From positions 62,001 through 126,000 of the forward strand of contig JADLGE010000079.1 in the NCBI GenBank assembly GCA_020849475.1: a DNA stretch of 64,000 bases. The letters are read 5' to 3'. Shown piece after piece: positions 2,110 to 57,530 of the stretch. This DNA is from Gammaproteobacteria bacterium (GTDB lineage Bacteria > Pseudomonadota > Gammaproteobacteria > Ga0077536). The translations under genes and the position numbers were made by a program. Positions within the stretch are counted from its first letter, which is position 1, and every line of letters starts with the position of its first letter. A model generated the notes under the pieces. It did no database searches. It worked only from the letters and a program-made list of their open reading frames with translations, and was not told the origin of the DNA.

Positions 2110-2161
2110 GTCGGTGCGACTTCATTCGCACGTTTGAATGTCAGACTTCAGTCTGACATTC
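2110..2161. repeat. Two abutting REP elements: class B (2110-2135) then class A (2136-2161)
   Basis: The first 26 nt read head GTCGG, stem TGCGACT, centre TC, stem ATTCGCA with one mismatch, then CGTTT. The next 26 nt are a perfect 12-bp inverted repeat around TC: GAATG and stem TCAGACT, TC, stem AGTCTGA and CATTC. The two units touch without a gap. The class A unit contains an ATG (2138) that opens the frame of the downstream gene and gives a spurious MSDFSLTF peptide. Confidence 0.85.
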
Positions 2162-8116: not shown

Positions 8117-8188
8117 GAATCTCAGACTGAAGTCTGACCCACGACAGTCCCTGCCTTCTTCCGTGGGGCAGGCTTCAGTCTGACACTG
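8117..8188. repeat. Paired class A REP elements (BIME-like), 26 + 20 + 26 nt
   Basis: The left element (8117-8142) is in reverse orientation with perfect stem TCAGACT/AGTCTGA. The right element (8163-8188) has head GTGGG and a decayed left arm, GCAGGCT. The heads (CCCAC and GTGGG) face each other across exactly 20 nt. The unit sits between converging genes (7225-8100 plus and 8209-9042 minus) and could form a long hairpin or act as a bidirectional transcript end. Confidence 0.85.
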
Positions 8189-8212
8189 CTGTGCGAATAA
8201 ATTCGCACCTAC
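8187..8212. repeat. Class B REP element, reverse orientation
   Basis: The stem is TGCGAAT (8192-8198) and ATTCGCA (8201-8207) around AA, followed by CCTAC, which is GTAGG on the other strand. It overlaps the end of the class A pair by two bases and reaches the stop codon end of the XRE gene. Confidence 0.75.
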
Positions 8213-9496: not shown

Positions 9497-9583
9497 GAAG
9501 GTGCGAATGAATTCGCACCTACGACAACGGCCGGCACCATGCCGACGAACCGTGTTCGCAGGTGCGATTTCAATCGCACATTG
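9497..9583. repeat. Inward-facing pair of class B REP elements
   Basis: The left unit (9497-9522) is reverse: GAAGG, stem TGCGAAT, GA, ATTCGCA, CCTAC. The right unit (9558-9583) is forward: GCAGG, stem TGCGATT, TC, AATCGCA, CATTG. Both stems are perfect. The heads face each other over a 35-nt spacer. They lie between the DUF2834-like gene and the convergent epoxide hydrolase gene. Confidence 0.85.
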
Positions 9584-14998: not shown

Positions 14999-15814
14999 AT
15001 GACGACGGCCGAGGCGGGCACCCTCGCCGCGGCCGGGCATGCCATCGAGTTCGAGCGCCTGTCCGGTAATGAAAACGGCCCGACCCTGGTGCTGTTGCAC
15101 GAGGGTCTGGGCTGCGTCGGCATGTGGCGACGCTTTCCTGCATTGTTGAATGCCGCTACCGGCCTGCCGGTATTGAGCTATTCGCGTCCCGGCTACGGCC
15201 GCTCGTCTTCCATCGCGCTGCCGCGCCCGCTCGATTTCCACACCCGCGATGCGCAGGACATCCTGCCGGCGGTGCTCGATGCGGCCGGCATCACGGACTG
15301 CATCTTCATCGGTCACAGCGATGGCGCGTCGATAGCGGTGGTGTACGCCGGCGCGACCCAGGATCCGCGCTTGCGCGCGCTGGTGCTGATGGCGCCCCAT
15401 GTGCTGACGGAAGAAAAGACCGTCATGAACATCGCGCAAGCCAGGCTCATGTTCCAGGGCAGCGATCTGCGCGACAAGCTGGCGCGCTATCACGGTGACA
15501 ACGTCGACTGCGCGTTCTGGGGATGGTGCGACGCATGGCTGGACGCCGATTTTCGCCGCTGGAACATCACCCATTGGCTGCCCGCCATCACGCTGCCAGT
15601 ATTGACCGTGCGCGGCAACGACGACGCCTACAACACCCCGGTGCACGTCGAGCGCATCGCGCACGGCGTCAGCGGAAAGGTCACGCGCGTTGATCTGGCC
15701 GATTGCGGACACGCGCCGCATTTGGAGCAGGGTGAGAAGGTGGTGGCCGCGGTGACGGAGTTTGTCGGCGCGGTGGCGTCAGCGCCGTCCCCGGTGGTTC
15801 AGACTGAAGTCTGA
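14999..15814 (+). CDS. Alpha/beta hydrolase whose last codons and stop come from a REP element
   Basis: The protein has 271 residues with an alpha/beta hydrolase fold: HEGLGCVGMW (oxyanion region), the nucleophile elbow GHSDGASIA with a serine, the acid near NDDAYNTPVHV and the histidine in ADCGHAPHLEQGEK. It may hydrolyse an ester or C-C bond; the substrate is unknown. ATG 14999 follows GAGG. The final residues VVQTEV and the TGA (15812-15814) are encoded by the class A REP element at 15794-15819, so the native C-terminus probably ended at or near VGAVASAPSP before the element inserted. It is 10 nt downstream of the transaminase. Confidence 0.82.
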   Translation: MTTAEAGTLAAAGHAIEFERLSGNENGPTLVLLHEGLGCVGMWRRFPALLNAATGLPVLSYSRPGYGRSSSIALPRPLDFHTRDAQDILPAVLDAAGITDCIFIGHSDGASIAVVYAGATQDPRLRALVLMAPHVLTEEKTVMNIAQARLMFQGSDLRDKLARYHGDNVDCAFWGWCDAWLDADFRRWNITHWLPAITLPVLTVRGNDDAYNTPVHVERIAHGVSGKVTRVDLADCGHAPHLEQGEKVVAAVTEFVGAVASAPSPVVQTEV

Positions 15815-15819
15815 ACCAC
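15794..15819. repeat. Class A REP element supplying a stop codon
   Basis: A perfect 12-bp inverted repeat with centre GA: GTGGT plus TCAGACT, GA, AGTCTGA plus ACCAC. Both ends carry the head-type sequence, so the two flanks are the same rather than head and tail. It encodes the last residues and the TGA of the preceding hydrolase gene. Confidence 0.85.
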
Positions 15820-34626: not shown

Positions 34627-34698
34627 GAATGTCAGACTGAAGTCTGACCCACAAAGAGTGGCACGCGTCCCTGTGGGTCAGACTTCAGTCTGACATTC
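34627..34698. repeat. Perfect class A REP pair (BIME-like) upstream of the RAYT gene
   Basis: Two perfect elements: 34627-34652 in reverse (GAATG, TCAGACT, GA, AGTCTGA, CCCAC) and 34673-34698 forward (GTGGG, TCAGACT, TC, AGTCTGA, CATTC). The spacer is exactly 20 nt and the heads face inward. This pair is the best-preserved copy in the window. It lies between the argC start (34539) and the RAYT start (34785), which are divergent. Confidence 0.95.
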
Positions 34699-34784
34699 GA
34701 ACCCAGCGATTCGATTCACATCGCGAGTTCGGCGAGTTACAGTCGCCCCGCGACAGGAAGTCGCGTCATGAATGGAGGCCAAGG

Positions 34785-35234
34785 ATGGTCTATGCGCATC
34801 TGCGCCAGGGACGCGTACCGCTCCCCGGCCAACTCTATTTTCTTACCACCACGACTGACAGGCGACGTCCTCTGTTTGAGGATTTTGCCAGCGCTCGATT
34901 CGTCATCACCGAAATGCGACGACTGCACGATTGTGGTTTGGTGTCTTCCCTGGCGTGGGTTGTGATGCCGGACCATCTTCATTGGCTGCTGGCTCTGGGC
35001 CATAGTCATTCACTGGCGATAGTCGTTAAATTGCTGAAGGGGCGCACGGCGGTGGCGGCCAACCGCGGCGCGCGTCGGCATGGTGCGGTTTGGCAGCAGG
35101 GCTATTTTGAACACGCGGTGAGACAGGACGAAGACGTCGCCAGCATCGCGCGGTACATTGTCGCCAATCCGGTGCGCAGGCGCATCGTGTCGCGTGTTGC
35201 CGATTATCCGCATTGGGATGCGGCCTGGTTGTGA
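34785..35234 (+). CDS. REP-associated tyrosine transposase (RAYT; Y1/IS200-like HUH nuclease)
   Basis: The protein has 149 residues from ATG 34785, six bases after GGAGG. It matches the Y1 transposase (IS200-like, PF01797-type) fold: YFLTTTTDRRRPLF at 18-31, the metal-binding HUH motif as HLH (His64, His66) in VMPDHLHWLLAL, WQQGYFEHAVR at 103-113 and the likely catalytic Tyr124 in ARYIVANPVRR. RAYTs are single-copy, non-IS transposases thought to cut and spread REP hairpins. REP elements of class A flank this gene at 34627-34698 and 35241-35266. The gene looks visibly less GC-rich than its neighbours, which may point to transfer. No terminal inverted repeats or target duplication are visible, so it is not an ordinary insertion sequence. 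Confidence 0.9.
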   Translation: MVYAHLRQGRVPLPGQLYFLTTTTDRRRPLFEDFASARFVITEMRRLHDCGLVSSLAWVVMPDHLHWLLALGHSHSLAIVVKLLKGRTAVAANRGARRHGAVWQQGYFEHAVRQDEDVASIARYIVANPVRRRIVSRVADYPHWDAAWL

Positions 35235-35240
35235 TGGCCT

Positions 35241-35266
35241 GAATGTCAGACTGAAGTCCGACCCAC
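35241..35266. repeat. Class A REP element downstream of the RAYT gene
   Basis: Reverse orientation: GAATG, TCAGACT, GA, AGTCCGA with one mismatch, CCCAC. It begins six bases after the RAYT stop. It has no partner within the usual 20-nt spacing. Confidence 0.85.
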
Positions 35267-42851: not shown

Positions 42852-42918
42852 TTGTGTTCTCCCCGGGATAAGTTTGAGTGTGAGGCAGTGTACCGTAGGC
42901 GGGAATTCATGCGCACAC

Positions 42919-42990
42919 CAGTGTCAGACTGAAGTCTGAACCACACTAGTCCCAGCCTTGTTCTGTGGGTCAGACTTCAGTCTGACATTC
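42919..42990. repeat. Class A REP pair, 26 + 20 + 26 nt
   Basis: Left unit 42919-42944 in reverse (CAGTG, TCAGACT, GA, AGTCTGA, ACCAC); right unit 42965-42990 forward (GTGGG, TCAGACT, TC, AGTCTGA, CATTC). Stems are perfect and the spacer is exactly 20 nt. The spacer shares most of its bases with that of the pair at 8117-8188. It lies between the divergent VOC and esterase genes. Confidence 0.9.
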
Positions 42991-43010: not shown

Positions 43011-43036
43011 AAATGCGCGAATGAATCCGCACCTGC
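43011..43036. repeat. Class B REP element next to the class A pair
   Basis: Reverse orientation: AAATG, CGCGAAT, GA, ATCCGCA, CCTGC; one stem mismatch. It starts 20 nt after the class A pair, so three units follow each other at 20-nt steps. Confidence 0.75.
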
Positions 43037-53408: not shown

Positions 53409-54166
53409 GCATGCGCCTGGCCGGCAAACGCGCGGTGGTGACCGGCGCCAGCAGCGGCATCGGCCGCGCCGTGGCGTTGGCCTTTGCGCGTGAAGGTGCG
53501 AGCGTGGTGGTGAACTACGCGCGCTCGGCGGAGCGCGCTGCCGAGGTGGTGGGCGAGATTGCAGCGGGCGGCGGTCGCGGCCATGCGCTGCAGGGCGATG
53601 TGGCGCACGCCGAGTCGGTTGAAGCCTTGGTGCGTGAGGCCGAGCGGGCGCTGGGCGGCATCGACATCTGGGCCAATATCGCCGGCGCCGACATCCTCAC
53701 CGGCGACGGCGCCAAGGGCAGCGATCTCGCCAAGCTCGCGAGTCTCATCGACGTTGATTTACGCGGCACGATGCTGTGCGCGTGGGCCGTCGCGCCGCGC
53801 ATGCGGGCGCAAGGGGCCGGCGTGATCCTCAACATGTCGTGGGATCTCGCGCTGCGTGGCATGGCCGAGCGTCATCCCGAAATGTTTGCCGCGACCAAGG
53901 CAGGCGTCACCGGTTTCACGCGTTCGTTCGCGCGCAGCGTCGCGCCGCACATCCGCGTGAACGAGGTCGCCCCCGGCTGGATTGCGACGGCCTTCGCCGA
54001 GACCGCGATGGCGCCGGAATATCGCGCCAATGTCATCGCGCAAACACCGATGGCGCGTTTCGGCACGCCGGAGGATGTGGCCGCCGCGGCGCTGTTCCTG
54101 TGTTCCGAGGAAGCGGCCTTCATCACTGGCCAGACCTTGAAAGTGAACGGCGGACTGAGCTCGTAG
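53405..54166 (+). CDS. Short-chain dehydrogenase/reductase with Phe at the catalytic tyrosine position
   Basis: The protein has 253 residues. The cofactor motif TGASSGIG is at 13-20 and the NAG-type motif NIAGAD at 91-96. Where the catalytic YxxxK is expected, the protein has Phe161-Ala-Ala-Thr-Lys165, so the active tyrosine is missing; Ser145 is present. The ending [15 protein letters not shown] is normal. It overlaps the pgm stop by four bases. Its own stop codon TAG (54164-54166) lies inside the GTAG head of a class B REP element. Confidence 0.88.
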
Positions 54167-54188
54167 ATGCGATTTCAATCGCACATTC
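54163..54188. repeat. Class B REP element supplying the SDR stop codon
   Basis: Forward orientation: GTAGA, TGCGATT, TC, AATCGCA, CATTC; the stem is perfect. The head's TAG is the SDR stop. It lies between the converging SDR and egtB genes. Confidence 0.88.
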
Positions 54189-57504: not shown

Positions 57505-57530
57505 GGATGTCAGACTGAAGTCTGACATTC
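57505..57530. repeat. Class A REP element
   Basis: GGATG, TCAGACT, GA, AGTCTGA, CATTC; the stem is perfect and both flanks are tail-like. It lies between apt (start 57407) and the stop of the flavoprotein gene at 57566, both on the minus strand. Confidence 0.85.

Follow-up and report, generated by a model that had tools for sequence, protein, structure and literature searches.

The window, a 64,000-nucleotide stretch of a gammaproteobacterial contig, contains a small HUH/Y1 gene standing between short palindromes, and the question it raises is whether this gene is a REP-associated tyrosine transposase (RAYT) with its REPs, and how the gene and the repeats are related across the genome and among relatives. 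The first-pass annotation described a protein of 149 residues with His64-His66 and Tyr124, and the open reading frame on the forward strand at 34785-35234 has exactly this length and these residues. The features of the locus are the following.

34627-34652, reverse strand: class A REP, perfect consensus, left member of the upstream pair (pattern match).
34673-34698, forward strand: class A REP, perfect consensus, right member of the upstream pair (pattern match, DNA fold).
34785-35234, forward strand: RAYT (TnpAREP) gene, 149 residues, HUH motif H64-L-H66, catalytic Y124 (NF047646, PF01797, PDB 4er8, homologue alignment).
35241-35266, reverse strand: class A REP, one mismatch, 6 nt after the RAYT stop codon TGA (pattern match).

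The protein matches the NCBIfam model for REP-associated tyrosine transposases, NF047646, with 147.8 bits over residues 8-144 (cut-off 80 bits), and the Pfam Y1_Tnp domain, PF01797, with 41.3 bits. Its closest solved relative is the E. coli TnpAREP, PDB 4er8 (E=4e-8). It is therefore a Y1 HUH protein above the curated cut-off, with the HUH histidines and a single catalytic tyrosine, and the identification as a RAYT stands. H64, H66 and Y124 are invariant in 87 out of 87 close homologues. The genome of the window, G000, contains one intact copy, i.e. the gene does not multiply itself. An Rfam search around the locus gave no match.

The upstream pair is perfect and faces inward, as had been read from the letters, with 20 nt between the heads and 86 nt from the pair to the ATG of the gene. 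As single-stranded DNA it folds into one long hairpin (-31.4 kcal/mol, z = -11.8). The further copy reported six bases after the stop codon is also present, with one mismatch. Together, the copies at 34673-34698 (+) and 35241-35266 (-) form the inverted pair that flanks the gene.

The class A REP is a 26-mer, GTGG-GTCAGACT-TC-AGTCTGAC-ATTC. The logo of 132 sampled copies reads (C/T)T-GTGG-GTCAGACT-TC-AGTCTGAC-ATTC-AA, and the conservation fades within about 7 bases to the left and 3 to the right of the element. The GTGG head is thus followed by an 8-bp palindrome around TC, which in the folded DNA forms 7 bp and a TTCA loop; the register proposed earlier (GTGGG head, 7-bp stem, CATTC tail) was one base off. 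Where two stem positions of a pair have both changed, the pairing is kept rather than broken in a ratio of 17:5 for class A and 26:9 for the second class described below. The palindrome is perfect and without a bulge, as in group 3 REPtrons. The canonical REP tetranucleotide is GT(A/G)G (PMC2817692, PMC3686654), so the head of class A is not unusual. The earlier suggestion that stem and head both differ from the E. coli REP consequently holds for the stem only, because the head is the textbook GTRG and the REP is of the perfect-palindrome type.

The palindrome had been described as spread through the window, and this is well borne out. The stem pattern has 19 matches in the window versus 0.07 expected by chance, and the head with the stem has 10 versus 0.00 in shuffled sequences. 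In the whole genome, where a count had been proposed as a check, there are 302 class A copies with at most three mismatches (149 on the forward and 153 on the reverse strand), of which at least 68 are perfect, while the reversed pattern used as a control gives 0. The REPs therefore lie both beside the RAYT and across the genome. Their placement was studied in 1.26 Mb of stretches from the same genome, using heuristic gene calls. Predicted coding sequence takes up about 90% of the DNA, yet 213 out of 223 sampled REPs of both classes (at most four mismatches) lie between predicted genes, and for class A alone the number is 130 out of 132, so this is a high-copy extragenic repeat.

Among 58 genomes the class A pattern is found in three, all of the same genus, with 302 copies in G000, 200 in G001 and 167 in G002, and there are 0 copies in all 55 other relatives. 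All three congeners have the RAYT, with 100% (G000), 81% (G001) and 54% (G002) identity to the protein of the window. Equally many REPs in related strains with no RAYT, one of the observations that the first-pass annotation had named as speaking against its reading, were not seen among the 58 genomes. In G001, the RAYT lies between argC and a TPMT-like methyltransferase gene, as in the window, and in G002 it is next to the same TPMT gene, while the contig stops on its other side. As the TPMT-like neighbour is the same in all three species, the RAYT has been inherited in place and is not itself mobile. Between G000 and G002 (contig C64) the RAYT is less conserved than the neighbouring TPMT protein (63% identity), in line with the fast evolution of RAYTs reported before.

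In G002, the matches to the class A pattern are a variant, GTAGGTCGGACTTCAGTCCGACATTC, and the RAYT is flanked by a different class, class C (GTAGGGCCGATTTCAATCGGCC, 126 copies). This is the known "orthoswitch", reported for Pseudomonas and Stenotrophomonas (PMC3686654). A second Y1 gene of G002 (L288) has no adjoining REP of class A, B or C.

The arrangement is not limited to this genus. In a set of 87 close RAYT loci that come from many genera, a perfect GTRG-headed palindrome is present in the 300-bp flanks of 32, and on both sides of 21, versus 0.9 and 0.0 in the shuffled control; the scan was strict and both counts are lower bounds. REP flanking is therefore common in the subfamily. At five related RAYT loci (L035, L036, L075, L095, L108) the 4-base GTAG head of the downstream REP ends together with the stop codon of the gene and provides its TAG. 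Another locus, L070 (CAMCBY010000487.1), is titled Klebsiella pneumoniae, but it appears to be the same contig as C487 of the congener G001, and the label is probably wrong. Taking the gene, its flanks and its position together, we consider it very probable that the locus in the window is a REPtron, i.e. a vertically inherited RAYT gene with inverted REPs around it.

The second class, class B, has the form GTAG-GTGCGAAT-TC-ATTCGCAC-ATTC (GTAGGTGCGAATTCATTCGCACATTC), with 240 copies in G000, 326 in G001 and 0 in G002. In the window the two classes occur side by side, and some copies are symmetric palindromes.

2110-2135, forward strand: class B REP, four mismatches (pattern match).
2136-2161, no strand: double-tailed class A palindrome, ATTC at each end (pattern match).
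8117-8142, reverse strand: class A REP, one mismatch, cluster A- A+ B- (pattern match).
8163-8188, forward strand: class A REP, four mismatches, same cluster (pattern match).
8187-8212, reverse strand: class B REP, tail-to-tail against the REP at 8163-8188 (coordinates from the printed cluster).
9497-9522, reverse strand: class B REP, one mismatch (pattern match).
15794-15819, no strand: double-headed class A palindrome, GTGG at each end (pattern match).
42895-42920, forward strand: class B REP, degenerate, first in the cluster B+ A- A+ B- (printed cluster).
42919-42944, reverse strand: class A REP, three mismatches, same cluster (pattern match).
42965-42990, forward strand: class A REP, perfect, same cluster (pattern match).
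43011-43036, reverse strand: class B REP, degenerate, last in the same cluster (coordinates from the printed cluster).
54163-54188, forward strand: class-B-like REP, GTAGATGCGATTTCAATCGCACATTC (pattern match).
57505-57530, no strand: double-tailed class A palindrome (pattern match).

Mosaic clusters of this kind recur in the sample, with 11 of the form A- A+ B- and three of the form B+ A- A+ B-. The two classes have 5 of 8 stem pairs in common, as well as the TC centre, the ATTC tail, a T before the head and A-A after the tail. No class B RAYT was found in the draft assemblies of G000 or G001. A second Y1 match on contig C100 (G000 C100:19424-19603; L002 near 1549-1674) was considered as such and rejected, as it is a short, broken piece of a gene from another Y1 transposase group, interrupted by stop codons.

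Both classes may be served by one enzyme; otherwise class B had an enzyme of its own, which has disappeared or is encoded in parts absent from the drafts. Because class B has the same head type, TC centre, ATTC tail and edge bases as class A, we infer that the class A RAYT acts, or formerly acted, on the class B REPs as well; in E. coli, a single RAYT goes with three REP types (PMC8266576). That the classes are instead two independent systems, with the class B RAYT lost or missing from the drafts, is a serious alternative to which we give slightly less than an even chance. RAYTs flanked by the class B stem do exist elsewhere (L072, L075, L078, L095, L128), the assemblies consist of 137 (G000) and 530 (G001) contigs at 96% and 92% completeness, and in the G000 sample class B is more degraded than class A, with 2 out of 119 copies perfect versus 21 out of 141. 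However, such a RAYT is missing from both genomes, class B is not decaying in the G001 sample (10 out of 74 copies perfect), and the identical tail, edge T and following A-A are what would be expected of one enzyme. The rule that the adjacent REP is the abundant REP is in any case not one-to-one, because class B is numerous in both genomes without a RAYT of its own and the RAYT of G002 is flanked by another class, with its 126 adjacent-type copies versus 167 of the class A variant. Both facts count against the REPtron reading.

We compared 65 orthologous intergenic gaps in the aligned parts of the draft genomes G000 and G001, covering a quarter of each genome. Among the gaps with a REP in G000, 10 out of 11 also have one in G001, versus 0 out of the 54 REP-free gaps (Fisher p = 6e-11). 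Convergent gaps alone give four shared, six empty and no discordant cases. When clusters are mapped less strictly, and two whose intervals are very long are set aside, 13 slots are shared and 7 are one-sided. Including more anchored loci added just one new site, and no slots could be mapped between the G002 loci and the samples. As no fresh insertion is seen among the 54 orthologous REP-free slots, current transposition is rare or confined to existing slots.

The slots are thus shared, but not always their class. Of 12 shared slots with a single class on each side, six have the same class and six are switched between A and B, so in this small sample the class is not inherited with the slot. 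Examples of switched slots are, for G000 versus G001, C9:206912 and L237:17530, C33:48053 and L226:4571, C1:29010 and L254:2717, and C48:24230 and L220:8308. In some of the switched slots the orientation and the spacing are not the same either (A- A+ versus B+ B-). These switches fit replacement in place and also independent insertion at favoured slots; the small sample gives a hint of the former. In-place replacement might consist of a RAYT cut at the old REP, followed by repair from, or insertion of, the active class. It is a tentative reading, to which we give well under an even chance, that fixed REP slots outlive species splits while their class is rewritten in place, with one RAYT serving two REP classes.

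Fused palindromes occur in the 1.26 Mb sample, where class A has 20 head-to-head and 15 tail-to-tail forms and class B 19 and 5. They point to a collapse of REP pairs through recombination, and such a collapse of inverted pairs would account for the symmetric copies at 2136, 15794 and 57505 in the window.

By analogy with the E. coli, Stenotrophomonas and Marinomonas enzymes, the RAYT would bind, cleave and mobilise REPs in the following way. Where a single strand is exposed, by replication or otherwise, a REP would fold into a hairpin with the GTGG tetranucleotide on its 5' side, and the RAYT would bind this structure. Tyr124 would then cut beside the hairpin, at a short site that the GTRG guide helps to select, leaving a 5'-phosphotyrosine link, and the enzyme would join the REP or REP-doublet DNA elsewhere. 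A possible but rather unlikely alternative to such mobilisation is that the likeness of the REPs is kept mainly by conversion between copies in fixed slots, the RAYT being a bystander or no more than a supplier of the nicks that set the conversion off. It would agree with the conservation of the slots between species at about 80% identity (10 out of 11 shared, no gains in 54), with the six out of 12 whose class is unlike, and with the fused class A palindromes, which point to recombination between REP pairs. However, the REP classes track the presence of the RAYT in the genus, and simple conversion does not explain switched slots with changed orientation and spacing, which insertion into favoured slots fits as well.

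Two other explanations were considered. The repeats might have nothing to do with the RAYT and serve only as transcription terminators or as hairpins at mRNA ends, and many REPs do lie in convergent gaps (72 out of 212, while convergent gaps are 82 of the 493 gaps of at least 60 bp). Still, we find this highly unlikely, since the common GTRG head, tail and stem, the 302 copies of one 26-mer and the restriction of the REPs to RAYT-bearing congeners go beyond what terminators need; a secondary use of REPs in RNA ends may exist. Even less credible, and close to negligible, is that the gene is an ordinary IS200/IS605 transposase with terminal hairpins. It has the Y1_Tnp domain, but it scores 31.3 bits with the IS200 model, below the cut-off of 55, versus the far higher score with the RAYT model, and it is a single-copy gene in the same place in all congeners, with hundreds of separate hairpins that carry no gene. 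We therefore rejected an IS200/IS605 element and retain the RAYT with its REPs.

Among the closest known systems is the REPtron of Stenotrophomonas maltophilia (group 3; PMC8266576), where GTRG also directly precedes a perfect palindrome of 8 bp whose centre is small, a single-copy Y1 HUH gene lies between inverted REPs, and the genome holds hundreds of copies. The system described here differs in its own stem, the TC centre, the conserved ATTC tail and the mostly GTGG head, and cleavage is here assumed from the known enzymes. The E. coli TnpAREP (4er8) with its Y, Z1 and Z2 REPs (group 2; PMC8266576) is similar in the related protein, the GTRG head, the presence of more than one REP type with one RAYT and the mosaic clusters. 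However, the palindromes of the E. coli REPs are imperfect and need their bulge, whereas those of the window are perfect, and the proteins are only distantly similar. With a perfect palindrome beside its head, the class A REP resembles those of S. maltophilia and not the bulged ones of E. coli (PMC8266576).

The REP orthogroups and orthoswitch of Pseudomonas and Stenotrophomonas (Nunvar et al. 2013, PMC3686654) also combine a RAYT in the same place with different REP classes, here class A in G000 and G001 and class C in G002, and include abundant classes without an adjacent RAYT. In the Nunvar model old REPs decay in place, whereas here shared slots often differ in class. Close inverted doublets, A+ A- and B+ B- with about 30 nt between, resemble REPINs (Bertels and Rainey 2011, PMC3116915), but, unlike in REPINs, head-to-head pairs (A- A+, separated by about 20 nt) and A/B mosaics are frequent as well.

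This is a REPtron of a known type, in which the head, the flanking REPs, the fixed gene and the orthoswitch follow known rules. It adds a well-documented case from a genus represented here by draft genomes. It also provides three species for comparison, in which the RAYT keeps its position, each genome has two REP classes, and slots outlast the class of the REPs in them. The slot result, which rests on a quarter of two draft genomes, is the only part that might go beyond the known rules. The literature leaves it open whether REPs spread and stay uniform by transposition or by gene conversion. If closed genomes confirm that the class is replaced in place, this would be relevant to the spread and the uniformity of REP families. 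REP turnover would then occur at standing sites rather than by hopping to new ones.
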